This document shows, piece after piece, positions 51,552 through 59,834 of a stretch of DNA of 64,000 bases (its first letter is position 1; every line of letters starts with the position of its first letter). Both the position numbers and the translations under genes were made by a program. The DNA lies in assembly GCF_000807775.2 (NCBI RefSeq), contig NZ_CP047385.1, forward strand, positions 62,001-126,000, written 5' to 3'. The DNA is from Pandoraea fibrosis (lineage in GTDB: Bacteria; Pseudomonadota; Gammaproteobacteria; Burkholderiales; Burkholderiaceae). Below the pieces are notes generated by a model, which was not told the DNA's origin, did no database searches, and worked only from the letters and a program-made list of their open reading frames with translations.

Positions 51552-54500
51552 GTGGACAAGTCATCCCCGAAATCCGACCCGTCGGCCAGCCACGCCATTC
51601 GCATTCGTGGCGCTCGCCAGCACAACCTCAAGAACCTCGACGTCGATCTGCAGACCGGTGAAATGACGGTCGTGACCGGTCCGTCCGGTTCCGGCAAGTC
51701 GAGCCTTGTCTTCGACACGCTGTTTGCCGAAGGCCAGCGGCGCTACGTCGAAACCTTCAGTGCCTACGCCCGCCAGTTCCTCGATCGCATGGATCGTCCG
51801 CAGGTCGACCATGTGGAAGGGGTGCCGCCTGCCATCGCCATCGATCAGACGAACCCCGTGCGCAGTTCGCGCTCGACGGTCGGCACGATGACCGAACTCA
51901 ACGATCACCTCAAGTTGCTGTTCGCCCGTGCGGCGGCGCTGTTCGATCGCGAGACGGCGCAACCGGTGCGTCACGACACGCCCGAGACGATCTACGCCGA
52001 TCTGATGGCACGTACCGCCGAAGGCGATCCGCGTCTGGTCGTGACGTTCCCGGTCGAACTGCCGGGCAGCGTGACGGCCGATGAAGTCGAGCAGTGGCTA
52101 TCGGCCTCCGGCTATACGCGTGTGCAGGCCGAGCGCGAAGTCGCAACGGCAGATGGCACACGCAAGGTGCTTGACGTCGTGGCCGACCGGTTCCGTTTGC
52201 AGAACACCGAGAAGGTGCGTGCGATGGAGGCCATCGAGTCGTCGCTCAAACGTGGTCGTGGACGTGTGAATGTCTACGTGCTGGCCGACGTGGGCGAGCC
52301 CGACATCTGGCGCTACTCGCAGGATCTGCACTGCCCCGATAGCGACCTGCATTACGCCGACCCGCAACCCGCGCTCTTCTCGTTCAATTCCGCCTATGGC
52401 GCGTGCGAAGCCTGTCGCGGCTTCGGCCGTGTGATCGGTGTCGATCTCGGTCTGGTGATTCCCGACGAACGCAAGACGCTGCGGGGGGGCGCGGTCAAGA
52501 CCATCCAGACACCGGCGTGGAAAGAGATTCAGGACGACCTGCTCGAATACGCCGGCAAGGCCGGTATTCCGCGCGACACGCCCTGGTCGAAACTGTCGCC
52601 CGAGCATCGCGAGTGGGTCATCGAAGGCGATGCCGACTGGAAAGGCGAGTGGAACAAACAGTGGTACGGCATCCGCCGCTTCTTCGGCTATCTGGAGTCG
52701 AAGGCGTACAAGATGCACATCCGTGTGCTGCTGTCGAAGTACCGCAGTTATACGACTTGCGAGACCTGTGGCGGCGCTCGCCTGAAGACGGAAGGCCTGC
52801 TGTGGCGTCTTGGCTCGAAGGCGAACGCCGACGCCGTGATGCCGCCCGCCCAGCGCTTCATGCCGCGTGGCGTGTCATGGTCGCGCGAGCAGCTCGAGGC
52901 GCTGCCGGGCCTCACCATGCACGACCTGATGCTCATGCCGATTTCGCGCGTGCGTCAGTTCTTCGATTCACTCACCTTGCCCTCGAGCCTGCTCGACGAC
53001 GCTCTCAAGCTGCTGCAGGAGGAAGTCGGCACCCGCCTGAAGTATCTGTGCGACGTCGGCATCGGGTACCTCACGCTCGATCGCCAGAGCCGCACGCTCT
53101 CCGGCGGTGAAGTGCAGCGTATCAATCTGACGACCGCGCTCGGTACGTCGCTCGTCAACACGCTCTTCGTGCTGGACGAACCGAGTATCGGCCTGCATCC
53201 GCGCGACATGGACCGCATCGTTGCCGCGATGCATCGTCTGCGCGACGCGGGCAATACACTCGTCGTGGTCGAGCACGACCCGGCGGTGATGCTCGCTGCC
53301 GACCGCGTCATCGATATGGGGCCGGGGCCGGGCGAGCGTGGCGGCCAGATCGTTTTCGACGGCACGCCGGAGGAAGTGCGTCACGCCGATACGCTGACCG
53401 GCAGCTATCTGGGCGGGCGCAAGCATGTGGCCAACGCGTCGAACTGGCGCGCGCGCCCGGTCGATGCCGATACGCCGCGCCTGACGTTGCGTGGCGTTCG
53501 CGAGCACAACCTCAAGCATGTCAACGTCGAGATTCCGCTCGGGCGACTCGTGTGCGTGACTGGTGTGTCGGGTTCCGGCAAATCGACGTTGGTGCAGGAC
53601 GTGCTCAATCCGGCATTGGCGCGTCACTTTGGCGATCCGACCGAGGCGCCGGGCGCGCACGACGAACTCCTCGGTGCCGAGCAACTCTCGGGCGTGGTGT
53701 TCGTCGATCAATCGCCTATCGGCAAAACGGCACGTTCGAACCCGGCGAGCTATGTCGGCGCGTTCGACGAGATTCGCAAGCTGTTCGCGGCCGAGCCGGT
53801 GGCACTGCAACGCGGCTACACCGCCAGCACCTTCAGTTTCAACTCCGGCAACGGGCGTTGCCCGACGTGCGGTGGCTCGGGCTTCGAGCATGTGGAGATG
53901 CAGTTCCTGAGCGACGTCTATCTGCGCTGCCCGGATTGCGACGGCAAGCGCTATCGCGCCGAAGTGCTCGACGTGAAGATTCAGCGCGCCGTGCCGGGTG
54001 AGGCGATGTGCGAATTGAGCGTGTCCGACGTACTCGAGCTGACGGTCAACGAGGCCGTCAAGCTGTTCTCGTCGGATCGCGATGTGCTGCGAGTGCTTCA
54101 GCCGATCGTGGACGTCGGTCTCGAATACGTGAAGCTGGGCCAGCCGGTGCCGACCCTCTCGGGCGGCGAAGCCCAGCGTCTGAAGCTGGCGGGTTTCCTT
54201 GCGGAAGCTGCGCAGAAGAAAACGGCGAGCGGACAGAAGGTCGCGCATCGCGGCCGTCTCTTCATCTTCGACGAACCGACGACCGGGCTGCACTTCGACG
54301 ATATCGCCAAGCTCATGCGGGCGTTCGGCAAGTTGCTCGACGGCGGTAACTCGCTGCTTGTCATCGAACACAACCTCGACGTCGTGCGTGCGGCGGACTG
54401 GATCATCGACCTTGGCCCGGAAGGTGGCGAAGGCGGCGGTGAAGTCCTCTGCGCGGGCACGCTTGCGCAGGTGGTCGCTTGCGAGGGGTCGCATACGGGA

Positions 54501-57482
54501 CGTGCACTGGCCGACTACGAACGCACGGTGGTCGCGCCGGGACAAGCGGCCGCGGTAGCCAAACCTGCTGGCGACCCCGGCATGCCGTTGCAAACGGCGT
54601 TGCGTGCAGCGCGGGCGCATCGCAAGCCCGCCGGTGGCGACGACATTCGCATCGTCAATGCGCGCGAGCACAATCTGAAGTCGCTCGACGTTTCCATTCC
54701 GCGCGGCAAGTTCAGTGTGATTACCGGCGTCTCGGGCTCGGGCAAATCGACGCTCGCGTTCGACATTCTCTTCAACGAGGGGCAGCGTCGTTACCTCGAA
54801 TCGCTCAATGCCTATGCACGCTCCATCGTGCAACCGGCGGGGCGTCCGGAGGTGGACGCCGTGTATGGCATTCCGCCGACCGTCGCCATCGAGCAGCGCC
54901 TGTCGCGTGGCGGGCGCAAGAGTACCGTCGCAACGACGACCGAGGTCTGGCACTTTCTGCGCCTGTTGTACGTCAAGCTCGGCATTCAGCACTGTATCCA
55001 CGACGGTGCGCCTGTCACGGCGCAGAGTCCGGATTCCATCGTTGCGCAACTGATGCGCGACCGTCGCGATCAGCACGTGGGCCTGCTTGCACCGCTGGTG
55101 GTGGGCCGCAAGGGCATCTATACCGATCTGGCGAAATGGGCCAAGGCGCGCGGACATTCGCATTTGCGAGTGGACGGCGTGTTCCTGCCGGTCGACCCGT
55201 GGCCGAAGCTCGATCGCTTCCGGGAGCACACCATCGAACTGCCCGTGGGCGATGTGGTGATCACGCCCGAGAACGAAGGCCTGCTGCGCACGTTGCTGGC
55301 GGCGGCGCTTGAGTTGGGCAAGGGCGTCATGCATCTGCTTGCGCCGCTCGACGGGCTTGGCGACACGATGTCCGACGAACAGCCGGGCGAAGGCGTGGGT
55401 GAGATCGAGGTGTTCTCGGTCAAGCGGGCGTGCCCGGTGTGTGGCACGAGTTATCCCGATCTCGATCCGCGCATGTTCTCGTTCAACAGCAAGCACGGCT
55501 GGTGTACGACGTGCGTAGGCACGGGCCTCGCGCTCACGCGCGAACAACGCGAAGCCTTCGACGACACGGTGCTCAATCAGGACAACCGGGGGCGTGAGCA
55601 TTCGCTGCCGTCGGAGGAGCAGGAACCGGAAGGCGTGGGCGATCAGCCGTGTCCGGATTGTCATGGCGCGCGGCTCAATACCGTCGCCCGCGCCGTGACG
55701 TTCGACGAACACGCGATCTCCGACGTCGCCCAATGGACCGTGAGCGACGTGCGCGAGTGGATTCAGCAACTCGAACTTCGCGGCCGCGATGCGAGCATTG
55801 CGCGCGACCTGATCAGCGAGATTCAGGGGCGTCTGGAGTTTCTGGAGGAAGTCGGGCTCGGTTATCTCACGCTCGACCGTGCGGCGCCCACGCTCTCGGG
55901 CGGCGAGTCGCAGCGTATTCGTCTGGCGGCGCAGTTGGGCAGCAACCTGCAAGGCGTTTGCTACGTGCTGGACGAGCCGACCATCGGCTTGCACCCGCGC
56001 GACAATGGCATTCTGCTCGGCGCGTTGCGCAAGCTGGGCGATCAGGGCAATACGCTGGTCGTGGTCGAGCACGACGAGGACACGATCCGTCGCGCGGATC
56101 ACATCATCGATATCGGGCCGGGCGCAGGCAAACGTGGTGGCACGCTTGTCGCGCAAGGCAGCGTGGCGGATCTTGCTGCGCATCCCGAATCGTTGACCGG
56201 CCAGTTCCTGGCGCACCCGTTGCAGCATCCGCTTCAACCGCGTCGCGAGGTGATCGCGCCCGCCAAGGGTGTCGAAGCGGTGCCGCCGAACTGGCTGACG
56301 GTGCACGGCGCGACGTTGCATAACCTGAAGCACGTCACGGCGTCGTTGCCGTTGTCGCGGCTCACAGCGATCACCGGTGTCTCGGGGTCGGGCAAATCGA
56401 CGCTCGCGCGCGATGTGCTGATGACGAACCTGCTCGATGCCGTGGGGCGTTCGGTGCTGTCGTCGCCAGCCGAGCGACGTGCCCGCAAGGGGACGGTGCG
56501 TCACGCAGTGAAGGCAGACGGCAAGCCGCGCGCGAAGTCGGAGGCGCCCGCAGAACCGCGTCGCCCGGTGGTGCACGCCTGGCATGGCTGCGAGTCCGTG
56601 ACGGGCTGGGAGACGATCGATCGCGTGCTTGAAGTCGATCAGACCCCTATTGGTAAAACACCGCGTTCATGCCCTGCCACGTACATCGGCTTCTGGGACA
56701 CGATTCGACGCTTGTTTGCCGATACGCTCGAAGCGCGTGCGCGCGGTTATGCGGCGTCGCGATTCTCGTTCAATACCGGAGAGGGACGTTGTCCGGCATG
56801 CGAAGGACAAGGCGTGCGCACCATCGGCATGAGCTTCCTCGCCGACGTGAAGGTGCTCTGCGATGTCTGTCACGGTCAGCGCTTCAACGCCGAAACGCTC
56901 GCCGTCACCTGGCGTGGCAAGAGCATTGGCGATGTGCTGACGATGGAAGTGGACGAAGCCGTCGAGTTCTTCGCGTCGATGCCGAGCATCGCGCATCCGC
57001 TGCAACTGATGCAGGACGTCGGGCTCGGTTACCTCACACTGGGACAGCCGTCGCCGACGTTATCGGGCGGTGAAGCGCAGCGTATCAAGCTGGTGACGGA
57101 GTTGACCAAGGTGCGCGACGATATCACGCGTCGCGGACAGAAGTCGCCGCACACGCTGTACGTGCTCGACGAACCGACCGTCGGTCTTCACATGGCAGAC
57201 GTGGCGCGACTTATCAACGTGCTGCATCGGCTCGTGAATGGCGGGCATACCGTGGTCGTCATCGAGCACAACCTCGATGTGATTGCCGAAGCCGACTGGA
57301 TCGTCGACATGGGACCGGAAGGCGGCAAGAACGGCGGGAGCGTGGTGGCGACGACATCCCCCGATGCGCTGACGAAGGTCGCGGCAAGTCACACCGGCAT
57401 TGCGCTCAAACCGGTGCTCGCGCAAACCACGGCCTCGGGGACGTCGACTAGGAAGTCGGAGGAAGCTGCCACAGCGAAGTAG
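51552..57482 (+). CDS. uvrA: Double-length excinuclease UvrA (two fused UvrA units)
   Basis: The 1976-residue protein is twice the normal UvrA length (about 940). Both halves read as complete UvrA units. There are four Walker A motifs, at Gly43 (GPSGSGKSS), Gly671, Gly1059 and Gly1609 (each GVSGSGKST). LSGGE signatures follow (TLSGGEVQRINL, TLSGGEAQRLKL, TLSGGESQRIRL, TLSGGEAQRIKL). The zinc module C-x2-C-x19/20-C-x2-C is present in each half (CPTCGGSG to RCPDC; CPACEGQG to CDVCHG). It should recognise bulky DNA lesions for UvrBC as a covalently linked dimer. The start is GTG at 51552 with only a weak Shine-Dalgarno, so the exact start is unsure. A perfect LexA box lies upstream. Confidence 0.95.
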   Translation: MDKSSPKSDPSASHAIRIRGARQHNLKNLDVDLQTGEMTVVTGPSGSGKSSLVFDTLFAEGQRRYVETFSAYARQFLDRMDRPQVDHVEGVPPAIAIDQTNPVRSSRSTVGTMTELNDHLKLLFARAAALFDRETAQPVRHDTPETIYADLMARTAEGDPRLVVTFPVELPGSVTADEVEQWLSASGYTRVQAEREVATADGTRKVLDVVADRFRLQNTEKVRAMEAIESSLKRGRGRVNVYVLADVGEPDIWRYSQDLHCPDSDLHYADPQPALFSFNSAYGACEACRGFGRVIGVDLGLVIPDERKTLRGGAVKTIQTPAWKEIQDDLLEYAGKAGIPRDTPWSKLSPEHREWVIEGDADWKGEWNKQWYGIRRFFGYLESKAYKMHIRVLLSKYRSYTTCETCGGARLKTEGLLWRLGSKANADAVMPPAQRFMPRGVSWSREQLEALPGLTMHDLMLMPISRVRQFFDSLTLPSSLLDDALKLLQEEVGTRLKYLCDVGIGYLTLDRQSRTLSGGEVQRINLTTALGTSLVNTLFVLDEPSIGLHPRDMDRIVAAMHRLRDAGNTLVVVEHDPAVMLAADRVIDMGPGPGERGGQIVFDGTPEEVRHADTLTGSYLGGRKHVANASNWRARPVDADTPRLTLRGVREHNLKHVNVEIPLGRLVCVTGVSGSGKSTLVQDVLNPALARHFGDPTEAPGAHDELLGAEQLSGVVFVDQSPIGKTARSNPASYVGAFDEIRKLFAAEPVALQRGYTASTFSFNSGNGRCPTCGGSGFEHVEMQFLSDVYLRCPDCDGKRYRAEVLDVKIQRAVPGEAMCELSVSDVLELTVNEAVKLFSSDRDVLRVLQPIVDVGLEYVKLGQPVPTLSGGEAQRLKLAGFLAEAAQKKTASGQKVAHRGRLFIFDEPTTGLHFDDIAKLMRAFGKLLDGGNSLLVIEHNLDVVRAADWIIDLGPEGGEGGGEVLCAGTLAQVVACEGSHTGRALADYERTVVAPGQAAAVAKPAGDPGMPLQTALRAARAHRKPAGGDDIRIVNAREHNLKSLDVSIPRGKFSVITGVSGSGKSTLAFDILFNEGQRRYLESLNAYARSIVQPAGRPEVDAVYGIPPTVAIEQRLSRGGRKSTVATTTEVWHFLRLLYVKLGIQHCIHDGAPVTAQSPDSIVAQLMRDRRDQHVGLLAPLVVGRKGIYTDLAKWAKARGHSHLRVDGVFLPVDPWPKLDRFREHTIELPVGDVVITPENEGLLRTLLAAALELGKGVMHLLAPLDGLGDTMSDEQPGEGVGEIEVFSVKRACPVCGTSYPDLDPRMFSFNSKHGWCTTCVGTGLALTREQREAFDDTVLNQDNRGREHSLPSEEQEPEGVGDQPCPDCHGARLNTVARAVTFDEHAISDVAQWTVSDVREWIQQLELRGRDASIARDLISEIQGRLEFLEEVGLGYLTLDRAAPTLSGGESQRIRLAAQLGSNLQGVCYVLDEPTIGLHPRDNGILLGALRKLGDQGNTLVVVEHDEDTIRRADHIIDIGPGAGKRGGTLVAQGSVADLAAHPESLTGQFLAHPLQHPLQPRREVIAPAKGVEAVPPNWLTVHGATLHNLKHVTASLPLSRLTAITGVSGSGKSTLARDVLMTNLLDAVGRSVLSSPAERRARKGTVRHAVKADGKPRAKSEAPAEPRRPVVHAWHGCESVTGWETIDRVLEVDQTPIGKTPRSCPATYIGFWDTIRRLFADTLEARARGYAASRFSFNTGEGRCPACEGQGVRTIGMSFLADVKVLCDVCHGQRFNAETLAVTWRGKSIGDVLTMEVDEAVEFFASMPSIAHPLQLMQDVGLGYLTLGQPSPTLSGGEAQRIKLVTELTKVRDDITRRGQKSPHTLYVLDEPTVGLHMADVARLINVLHRLVNGGHTVVVIEHNLDVIAEADWIVDMGPEGGKNGGSVVATTSPDALTKVAASHTGIALKPVLAQTTASGTSTRKSEEAATAK

Positions 57483-57545
57483 CCGCTCGCTTTCCCGGTC
57501 GACTCGACCCTCGACCCTCGTTCACGGCCAGTTCGTGGGCGATAG

Positions 57546-57573
57546 ACGGGACGCCTGATGGCGTCCCGTTTTT
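57546..57573 (+). terminator. Strong Rho-independent terminator after uvrA
   Basis: ACGGGACGCC (57546-57555) and GGCGTCCCGT (57560-57569) form a 10-bp perfect stem with a TGAT loop and a following TTTT. Confidence 0.95.
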
Positions 57574-57842
57574 CATTTGGCACCGCGATTCATCGTATAC
57601 GGTTTTGTATATTTTAAATTCCCCCTTCTGTTCATCACTGTCACGGCCAGCCGTGCGTCATTTGATGTAAGTGTGTGCACACTTGCTCTGATACGTCGGG
57701 AATATCTCGCCTTAATTGTTTCTAAAATAGCAATTAGAAATAGACAATTATCGACTTTATTGCGATTGATGGTGGCAATAGACTGCAACTGTCGACGATG
57801 AATTGAACATCGCCGCGTTTTAAATAGACAGGAGAAAACACC
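57574..57842 (+). promoter_or_regulatory. AT-rich leader region of the DUF4148 gene
   Basis: This gene-free stretch is strikingly AT-rich for the window, with runs such as TATATTTTAAATT and AAAATAGCAATTAG, and holds the perfect palindrome GTGTGCACAC (57673-57682). It probably contains a strong promoter with a long 5' leader before the AGGAG site at the DUF4148 start. An exact -10/-35 pair cannot be chosen with confidence. Confidence 0.5.
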
Positions 57843-58145
57843 ATGAAGCGCACTCTTATTACCTCTGCCCTGATTTCCGCGATGTTGGCTGTGTCGGCCG
57901 GTTCGGCTTTCGCCAGCGACGCTTTCGAAGGTCCGTCGGAATTCTCGTGGGTTCCCCAAACCAGCGTGCTGACCCGCGCCCAGGTTCGTGAAGAACTCGT
58001 GCAAGCTCAGCAAGCCGGTCTGCTGCAACAACACGATTCGGTCTATCCGAAGTCGGTTGCCAAGGTTGGCGGTGCCACTGCCGTTGTGACCCCGGGTTCG
58101 GTCGGTAACATCGCACAAGCGGGTACCACGTACTTCGGTAGCTAA
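57843..58145 (+). CDS. DUF4148 small exported protein
   Basis: The 100-residue precursor has a clean signal peptide (MKRTLITSALISAMLAVSAG, cleavage near AFA-SDA). The DUF4148 core follows: LTRAQVREELVQAQQAGLLQ. The protein is predicted to be periplasmic or secreted. DUF4148 proteins are abundant in Burkholderiales, often as many small paralogues, and have no assigned function. AGGAG precedes the ATG, and a strong terminator about 90 bases after the stop makes it monocistronic. Confidence 0.93.
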   Translation: MKRTLITSALISAMLAVSAGSAFASDAFEGPSEFSWVPQTSVLTRAQVREELVQAQQAGLLQQHDSVYPKSVAKVGGATAVVTPGSVGNIAQAGTTYFGS

Positions 58146-58236
58146 TTCCCGCTACCTGTCGCTGCACTTGCTGTAACCCCCGTGAGCCAGCGCCGTCAGG
58201 GCGCATTGCGACTCCGGGTAGCAGTCTCCGATGACA

Positions 58237-58270
58237 AATCGGCCGCAATTCTGGCGGCCGATTTTGTTTT
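58237..58270 (+). terminator. Rho-independent terminator after the DUF4148 gene
   Basis: AATCGGCCGC (58237-58246) and GCGGCCGATT (58254-58263) form a 10-bp stem with a 7-base loop, followed by TTGTTTTG. Confidence 0.92.
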
Positions 58271-58297
58271 GTGCGCCGCATTCCTTCGCGCATCGGT

Positions 58298-58553
58298 TGT
58301 GGACAAGTCTGTCGATAACCCTGTTGGCAAACTGTGATTCGACTGTGGGCAACCCTGTGGATGACGAGGGGATAGCCGGTGGATAGGCGGGGGAAAAGTG
58401 TCCGATATCCGTGGGATAACCAGTGGATATCCCGTGGATAAGGGGTGGATATGTAGTGGAAATACCTTGGATAACTCAGGGGAAAACCAGTGAATTTCCT
58501 GTGGGGATCTCCGGTTTTTCTGTGATTAAGCTGTGGATTCCCGGTGGATAAAT
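58298..58553. repeat. 11-bp-periodic array of degenerate DnaA-box-like units
   Basis: About 23 same-orientation units related to TGTGGATAA (the complement of DnaA box TTATCCACA) start at 58298, 310, 322, 333, 344, 356, 367, 378, 389, 400, 411, 422, 433, 444, 455, 466, 478, 489, 500, 511, 521, 532 and 543. The step is almost always 11 or 12 bp. Twelve units match at least 7 of 9 bases, and the best (8 of 9) are TGTGGACAA, TGTCGATAA, TGTGGATGA, CGTGGATAA and GGTGGATAA. None is a perfect TTATCCACA. The unit at 511 is barely recognisable. The array is non-coding and lies between two converging genes. Confidence 0.85.
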
Positions 58554-58635
58554 TTCGTTGCACCCGACGGCCACGACCACCGGGCGGGCATCTCCACCGC
58601 AATGCCGGGAATGCCTCGCCGAATGCGCAAGAAAA

Positions 58636-59598
58636 TCACGTTCCGAAAACTTTTGCAAGAAACGTCGTCACGCGTGCGATAGCGTCATCGCGTGCTTCCG
58701 GCTGGGTGCCGGTAACTGGCACGACGTGAGTGCGCGGGTTGGTGAATTCCGGACGACTGCGCACGGGGAGATTCGGATAGTCGAAATCGTGCACCGCGCC
58801 CGGATAGATGTGGAATGTGATCGGTGCGCTCTGTGCCATCACGCTGTGCACGAAGGCGTCGCAAGGGGCGGGCTTCGACCACACGTCGTCGGCACCGATG
58901 AGGAGCAGCAACGGGATGCGCGTCGTCCAGTCGGCACCTTGCGCCGTCGCGTTGCACCAGCCGGGATAGAACGCGATGGCCGCAACGAAGTCCGGCGCCG
59001 GTTTGGCATCCTGCGAGCGGCCGGGACCCTTCGGGCCGATCGAGAACAGCACTGTGCCGCCGCCATGCGACCAGCCCATCAAGGCAATGCGATCCGGCTG
59101 GATGGCCGGTAAGGTCTGCAAGTAACGCAATGCCCCGTAGGCATCGCGCGGGCGCTCCACGGATGGGCGCACCGGTCCGCCCCTGGCACACTCGCTGGAC
59201 TGTCCGCGCGAGGTGAAGCTGTCCACGGCCAGTACCGCGTAGCCTTGCGCATTCAACCGGTGTGCCCAGTCGAGTTCGCGGCTGTCGATGTTGCCCTTGC
59301 GCGTGAACATGCCGTTGCAGCCATGCATGAAAACGACGGCAGGTGTGGGGCCGGTGGCGTGGGTCGCGCGGAACAAGTAGGCGTCGATCATCACGGGCGC
59401 GCCGTTGTTGTCGGTGTCCAGCGAAGGGAGGCTCACCTTCTCCTGCGCGAACGCTGTGCCAAACCCACTCAACGAAAGACAGATGAGCGCGACGGCAAGG
59501 GATGACGTCACAGGGTGTGCGGACCGACTGACAAAACGGTGAGAGACGCGATCCACAGGACGCATGAGACCTGTGAGACCCATAAAGCCAGTCGCCAT
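58636..59598 (-). CDS. Exported dienelactone-hydrolase-family alpha/beta hydrolase
   Basis: The 320-residue protein begins at the ATG at 59598 after GGGAGAGG. A signal peptide with a long N region ends near AFA-QEK, so it is exported. The alpha/beta-hydrolase core shows the oxyanion segment VVFMHGCNGMF and the nucleophile elbow GWSHGGG. The acid is in GADDVW and the catalytic His in GAVHDFDYP, the order typical of dienelactone hydrolases. These usually hydrolyse esters or lactones; the substrate is unknown. It stands alone, divergent from metY. Confidence 0.9.
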   Translation of the reverse strand: MATGFMGLTGLMRPVDRVSHRFVSRSAHPVTSSLAVALICLSLSGFGTAFAQEKVSLPSLDTDNNGAPVMIDAYLFRATHATGPTPAVVFMHGCNGMFTRKGNIDSRELDWAHRLNAQGYAVLAVDSFTSRGQSSECARGGPVRPSVERPRDAYGALRYLQTLPAIQPDRIALMGWSHGGGTVLFSIGPKGPGRSQDAKPAPDFVAAIAFYPGWCNATAQGADWTTRIPLLLLIGADDVWSKPAPCDAFVHSVMAQSAPITFHIYPGAVHDFDYPNLPVRSRPEFTNPRTHVVPVTGTQPEARDDAIARVTTFLAKVFGT

Positions 59599-59834
59599 GA
59601 GATGCCTCTCCCGGAAGCCGCCGCCGCGGCGTGTGCGAACGAGTATAGCCAGCGGCTCAAGCCTCCGATAGCGCAGCGGTCACGCCTGATATTACGAAAG
59701 GTTGCGGGTCGTGTCTCGCTAAGCATCTGCCAATCGGAGATAAGCCCGGATCATGTCGCCGTTTAGAATGCCGTTGGATACCTAATCAAATCGTTCCGCC
59801 CGTGGAGCGTCATGCTTATCCGGAGACATTCGAC

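Follow-up and report, generated by a model that had tools for sequence, protein, structure and literature searches.

An origin-proximal array of 23 tandem DnaA-box-like units in Pandoraea fibrosis, conserved across most of the genus, as a candidate DnaA sink

We analyzed a window of 64,000 nucleotides from Pandoraea fibrosis (contig NZ_CP047385.1, positions 62,001 to 126,000 of the forward strand), part of a single-contig chromosome of 5.59 Mb on which dnaA starts at base 1. On the + strand, the gene of a DUF4148 protein of 100 amino acids (57843..58145) is followed by its intrinsic terminator (58236..58264, + strand), which parts it from an array of short repeats at 58298..58551 (+ strand; chromosome positions 120,298-120,551). 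A terminator-like sequence was also seen by eye in several relatives. On the other side, a gene of the dienelactone-hydrolase family (58636..59598) lies on the - strand and ends at 58636, so that both neighbors converge on the array. Neither is a replication gene. No sigma-70-like promoter site was detected within 58100-58700 and, since both neighboring genes point towards the array, promoter control by it is unlikely. Upstream of the DUF4148 gene, window positions 51552-57482 encode a double-length UvrA-like protein of 1976 amino acids with two UvrA interaction-domain stretches. An earlier sequence-only reading had placed the array between a terminator and a converging gene, which these coordinates bear out; its description as far from any replication gene is misleading, as the distance to dnaA is 120 kb, or about 2% of the chromosome.

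The array is composed of 23 units that resemble TGTGGATAA, share the consensus TGTGGATAACC, and follow one another in a single orientation (+) in steps of 10-12 bp, mostly 11, over about 255 bases. They start at 58298, 58310, 58322, 58333, 58344, 58356, 58367, 58378, 58389, 58400, 58411, and 58422 (units 1-12) and at 58433, 58444, 58455, 58466, 58478, 58489, 58500, 58510, 58521, 58532, and 58543 (units 13-23). Read on the minus strand, they resemble DnaA boxes of the TTATCCACA type. The best 23-unit chain with steps of 10-12 bp scored 149 out of 207 against TGTGGATAA, whereas 1000 dinucleotide shuffles gave a mean of 93.7 (sd 3.3) and a maximum of 106. Autocorrelation peaked at lags of 11 (z 8.2) and 22 (z 8.5), values that none of the 1000 shuffles attained, and the best 10-unit chain scored 66 in the array versus 48 (+ strand) and 45 (- strand) elsewhere in the window. 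The sequence-only reading had reported about 23 units of one orientation at 11 or 12 bp, none of them a perfect TTATCCACA, and both statements hold (0 of 23 units are perfect). Exact matches to TTWTNCACA were likewise absent from the 23 units, and 5 units differ from the box at no more than one base. Many units are two or three bases off the DnaA box, and affinities, here and below, are those that we infer.

The quality of the units varies along the array. Units 1-3 (58298..58330, + strand) are spaced by 12 bp and begin with TGTGGACAA (unit 1) and TGTCGATAA (unit 2); across the 24 long arrays described below, unit 1 has the top mean score (9.2) and is a perfect TGTGGATAA in 7. The weak unit 4 (58333..58341, + strand; mean score -0.2, sd 2.0, 24 arrays) has kept TGTG and lost GATAA. 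Next are units 5-9 (58344..58397, + strand), unit 10 (58400..58408, + strand), which is weak on average (mean score -0.7, sd 4.7, 24 arrays), and units 11-19 (58411..58508, + strand), mostly of the GGGATAA and GTGGATAT types. Unit 20 (58510..58518, + strand) is weak and contains a T run, with a score of -0.5 in the window's array; the fourth unit from the right has a mean score of 1.9 over the 24 arrays. Units 21-23 (58521..58551, + strand) form the right-end block. Units 4, 10, and the fourth from the right, all three weak on average, break the array up into four blocks (about 3, 5, 9, and 3 units) and leave about 20 plausible boxes among the 23 positions. A role at the RNA level was considered and rejected: no Rfam family was identified at E-values up to 1 in 57450-59700, and the fold had a z-score of -1.8, a stability matched by 12 of 200 shuffles. 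We also discarded a CsrA-type GGA sponge, since the central G of the GGA is less informative than the positions next to it.

Using a 551-base query, we matched the array in 28 of 32 Pandoraea genomes, including its own. The four genomes with no match are G017, which measures 1.2 Mb, and G023, G025, and G030; the latter three also had no match to the unit model described below at E-values up to 0.1, and G017 had a single weak one (E up to 0.1) that by eye resembles 23S rRNA. The DUF4148 gene lies beside the array in 26 of the 28 genomes and the hydrolase gene in 20, and each of the 28 arrays has one or both of them as neighbors; the DUF4148 gene is present in all 8 genomes in which the hydrolase gene is not adjacent. 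Long arrays, with 17-26 units from the common left end (median, 22.5), were observed in 24 of the 28 genomes. Three arrays are short (G008, G011, and G029; 7 units each), and that of G028 has 16 units and may adjoin another copy of the DUF4148 gene, as its neighbor is just 56% identical. Since 4 of 32 genomes have no match and three retain just 7 units, the array is dispensable and cannot be essential. No relatives were found among 72,556 plasmid records.

The spacing and the position of the array are also conserved. Among 518 gaps between units in the 24 long arrays, 399 measure 11 bp, 96 measure 12 bp, 20 measure 10 bp, and 3 measure 9 or 13 bp, so that 495 of 518 are 11 or 12 bp. The array is located 34-128 kb from dnaA, on its downstream side, in all 20 genomes that carry both on one contig (they are on different contigs in the other 8 of 28). 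Its orientation with respect to dnaA is reversed in 4 of these 20 genomes (G014, G015, G019, and G022). The conserved position may be mere synteny.

The variable unit number and the four genomes in which the array was not found would fit a neutral degenerate satellite, and the sequence-only reading had listed a satellite, possibly one bound by another protein, among its options. We considered this reading, in which the repeats are neutral or serve as sites for an unrelated protein, in the light of phase and sequence constraint. Array length, taken as the distance between fixed left and right anchors, was measurable in 22 of the 24 long arrays and had nine values between 145 and 245 bp; modulo 11 it was 2±1 in 22 of 22 and exactly 2 in 19. 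The kept phase by itself is no proof of selection, because repeat exchange also yields changes by whole units and could preserve the 11-bp register. Constraint was compared in 23 arrays in which the first nine units are identically spaced. The mean difference between genomes was 0.09-0.18 at unit positions 2, 3, 4, and 8, versus 0.39-0.42 at positions 7, 10, and 11, and the five-column core (positions 2-5 and 8) had a mean difference of 0.151, the lowest among all 11 registers. As a divergence yardstick we used the hydrolase gene, with 19 orthologues among the 23 compared loci, in which codon positions 1+2 differed by 0.136 and the 76 four-fold sites by 0.464. In variability, the box cores match the first two codon positions of the neighboring gene, and the spacers come close to its silent sites. 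A column permutation reached the observed difference between positions in 504 of 20000 cases, so that the support for core constraint is moderate.

To search other genomes we used a sequence profile (R1), trained on 46 four-unit stretches of the genus arrays with no oriC input. The underlying alignment (A2) includes 46 of 62 candidate 44-mers; since the 16 omitted ones are mostly right-end windows or poor units, R1 is biased to good units. An earlier 66-nucleotide alignment (A1; 31 of 32 pieces) was discarded, as it contained a row shifted by MAFFT and was dominated by one part of the array. The profile was preferred over a pattern of three GTGGAT motifs, because the latter matched 25 of 299 family genomes mostly in what by eye appeared to be simple or coding repeats. 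The E-values of R1 are rough, and stricter filters were applied in large searches. R1 matched 47 of 200 family genomes, 18 of the genus and 29 others. In the chromosome of P. fibrosis, the array is the sole match at E-values up to 0.1.

At the same threshold, 35 genomes contained 38 matching places, 31 of them outside the genus; these genomes were mostly picked for earlier matches, and the 31 places are thus no fair sample. Ten are at oriC (two each in G194, G160, G042, and G062, one each in G065 and G045), as assigned by position with respect to dnaA and contig ends with contigs treated as circular. Two are upstream of nrdA (L161 and L179), one adjoins a plasmid replication gene and parA (L175), five are in the intergenic region between ybdK and marR (tested for L177 and L181, seen by eye for L176, L178, and L180), three are near prkA (tested for L162, seen by eye for the loci in G212 and G251), and ten have no tie to a known replication locus. 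In a genus with small genomes (g12), the profile finds oriC, either with dnaA and dnaN (L166-L168) or upstream of dnaA (L164 and L170), and the unit types resemble those of the array. Wider searches at E-values up to 3e-4, on a genome sample drawn automatically, retrieved matches at both higher ranks: of 398 further genomes in the order 7 had one, and of 368 further genomes in the class 8 did. Six of these 15 matches adjoin dnaA or dnaN (oriC; L197, L203, L206, L207, L209, and L210), three are upstream of nrdA (L200, L201, and L211), three are at dnaB or rplI (L199, L202, and L212), and three are at other genes (L198, L208, and L213). A profile trained on a non-oriC array alone thus finds replication loci in 12 of the 15 distant genomes with a match, which is the strongest reason to regard the units as DnaA boxes. 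Such matches at oriC, nrdA, and dnaB/rplI argue, together with the core constraint, the kept phase, and the conservation in 28 of 32 genomes, against a neutral satellite or the sites of an unrelated protein, a reading that we consider quite improbable.

Arrays of the same kind were also observed elsewhere. Another genus of the family harbors one of 13 units at 228 kb from dnaA, between an SIS-domain gene and a BON-domain gene (L158; G175:C6:57698). Two arrays in genus g10 (L162 and L068) were segmented into 6 units each; that of L162 lies upstream of a prkA-like gene, and L066 is similar by eye. In two distant genomes of the class (L206 and L207), the gap between dnaA and dnaN contains two facing tandem arrays of near-perfect boxes, mostly at 11-12 bp. 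The longest oriC array among the segmented loci has 10 units, versus 23 in the array of the window.

On sequence grounds, the units of the array are very probably DnaA boxes, as the earlier reading had proposed. They are TTATCCACA-like 9-mers of the same orientation, 2-3 bp apart, and a pitch of 11 or 12 bp, made up of a 9-mer and a gap of 2 or 3 bp, fits cooperative DnaA spacing. In E. coli, DnaA is reported to occupy in vivo mostly paired boxes with 2 or 3 bp between them, and adding 1 bp to a 3-bp gap strongly cut binding, whereas removing 1 bp did not (PMC11317965). The weak sites of E. coli oriC are described as spaced by 2 bp and filled from a strong box (PMC6070618), and for Thermotoga DnaA a same-orientation pair is reported to bind best at a spacing of 2 bp (PMC10316083). 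The consensus is given as TTWTNCACA with a loose box position 3 (PMC12371093), which corresponds to the variable unit position 7; the N position of this consensus shows no special variability in our arrays, which counts against a perfect fit to the DnaA box. The dnaA product of the strain (509 amino acids) matches solved DnaA structures, including the isolated DNA-binding domain 1j1v. Hda is also encoded in the genome, so that control of DnaA by its ATP state is likely.

Given that arrays of the same kind belong to oriC in other genera, we considered whether the array is a relic, cryptic, or alternative origin that has retained its DnaA-binding half, a cryptic or relic origin also having been suggested in the sequence-only reading. 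The cumulative GC skew, followed over 406 kb around dnaA, has its minimum 13.9 kb before this gene and rises through the array region, and the skew is not negative in the 10-kb bins that flank the array on both sides. As the turn of the skew is near dnaA and thus 120 kb from the array, the latter is not the working origin. Furthermore, no strongly AT-rich block adjoins it: the 100-bp windows between 58001 and 58900 contain 46 to 64% GC, with the lowest value inside the array and 54-64% in the adjacent windows. A low-GC stretch is located about 0.6 kb to the left of the array, ahead of the DUF4148 gene. These data, together with the two non-replication neighbors, make an origin of any of these types very improbable. 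Elsewhere in the 406 kb around dnaA, the densest 400-bp stretches contain 4-5 boxes with at most one mismatch, and the last 3 kb before dnaA have at most two units in tandem.

Two further loci close to dnaA on the P. fibrosis chromosome (G000) contain DnaA boxes. Near G000:C1 5517643 (L129), 74 kb before dnaA, five near-consensus boxes within 400 bp adjoin GTTTCACGTGAAAC, presumably a parS-like site. The ybdK-marR intergenic region (G000:C1:5571875-5572097), 20 kb before dnaA, has four near-consensus boxes and the motif TAGTAGTAG, which we take to be DnaA-trio-like, and measures 38% GC over a 100-bp stretch. In two genomes, this element is closer than dnaA to the GC-skew minimum of the stretches examined: the minimum lies at -14 kb in G000, and in G107 it lies at -80 kb with the element at -94 kb. 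For the family as a whole, the ybdK-marR region may represent the true oriC; in one report, the exact origin of Burkholderia cenocepacia chromosome 1 is left open (PMC4948915).

We propose that the array probably serves as an origin-proximal DnaA sink, in which tandem boxes of mostly low affinity limit re-initiation; we infer the occupancy by DnaA, the strengths of the boxes, the dependence on ATP, and the influence on timing. The array would be a one-way tandem of mostly weak DnaA boxes, separated for the most part by gaps of 2-3 bp and headed on the left by a single strong box. DnaA would first occupy this strong box and then spread over the weak boxes as a cooperative, probably ATP-dependent oligomer. 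As the locus would be copied early, the sink would double in each replication round, and the doubled sink would pull free DnaA away from oriC and thus delay or limit re-initiation. The position near dnaA and the reversal in 4 of 20 genomes fit a sink that works in either orientation and is duplicated early in every round. The same reversal argues against a polar barrier. A structural element of this or another type (fork barrier, domain boundary, or origin positioning), acting through DnaA or another protein, would be in accordance with a long, likely protein-binding array in a gap near the origin that appears poor in transcription, and we regard it as improbable.

A more specific version of the sink is conceivable, and we put it forward tentatively. 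The array would be an orphan oriC-like array acting as a dedicated ATP-DnaA counter that fills one way from its strong end box, with initiation timed by filament occupancy and not by a switch of the datA/DARS type. It would then represent the longest scaffold for a DnaA filament that the unit model finds in the chromosome, placed away from the origin. The sequence-only reading had proposed a DnaA-titrating or DnaA-reactivating locus; titration stands as the best remaining function, whereas an assignment to datA meets with the lack of a strict IHF site. The strict IHF consensus was absent from window positions 57500-59000 and from 26 of 27 loci (the own locus and 26 relatives, positions 1200-2300), and the sole match among the 27 falls outside the array. 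A divergent IHF site could escape this strict E. coli consensus. The result bears on the possibility that the array is a nucleotide-switch site, at which a DnaA oligomer would, beyond mere sequestering, stimulate either the hydrolysis of ATP, as at datA, or the release of ADP, as at DARS. The array is non-coding, origin-proximal, and made of probable DnaA boxes, Hda is present, and a comparison of E. coli genomes reports datA as always near oriC (PMC4585315). However, datA is described as requiring IHF (PMC10950094), and the boxes of the array all have one orientation, so that we consider a nucleotide switch rather unlikely.

In open-licence PMC papers, we found none that joins Pandoraea and the DnaA box and none that describes datA or DARS for this beta-proteobacterial genus, nor was the array described in the titles and abstract starts retrieved there for DnaA-box clusters, datA/DARS, and Burkholderia/Betaproteobacteria. 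Initiation control by DnaA titration is debated, and the cases that we found are mainly from E. coli and Bacillus subtilis. If the proposed function is true, this compact, separable, and conserved array, with the spacing of a DnaA filament, would allow titration to be tested by the removal of one 255-bp piece, and would be an example of platforms for DnaA oligomers that selection keeps away from oriC and from promoters.

Several known systems resemble the array in part. Like the low-affinity arrays of E. coli oriC, reported as weak sites 2 bp apart that are filled from a strong site (PMC6070618), it combines close spacing with weak boxes; E. coli oriC has clusters of four sites, whereas the array has 23 units and no unwinding element was seen. 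The double DnaA boxes of the E. coli DnaA regulon share the preferred spacing of 2-3 bp (PMC11317965), but these are pairs and the array is a long run between converging genes. DARS1 and DARS2 of E. coli are also non-coding DnaA-box loci outside oriC; they possess a three-box core, with DARS2 reported to need IHF and Fis (PMC4585315), in contrast to about 20 tandem boxes here, and the array is set apart from them by this general layout. The datA locus of E. coli, which is reported to lower active DnaA (PMC4585315, PMC10950094), is likewise non-coding, near oriC, and equipped with DnaA boxes; its boxes number four or five, and it depends on an IHF site at set spacing; the array is not filed as datA because it has no strict IHF site. 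DnaA boxes in E. coli are reported to be enriched near oriC, with evidence of titration (PMC12371093). The DnaA-box clusters of B. subtilis are, like the array, origin-proximal boxes outside oriC, although there are several clusters in that species and one long single-orientation run at 11-bp pitch here, and we do not claim homology. According to a review, loss of six of these clusters caused early initiation, which fits DnaA sequestration, and the same review states that clusters with significant roles were not identified (PMC5295017). Given that its units are DnaA boxes, the array lies outside oriC and near the origin as such clusters do, and it is best read as a long variant of the extra-oriC DnaA-box clusters, with a single orientation and a near-constant pitch.
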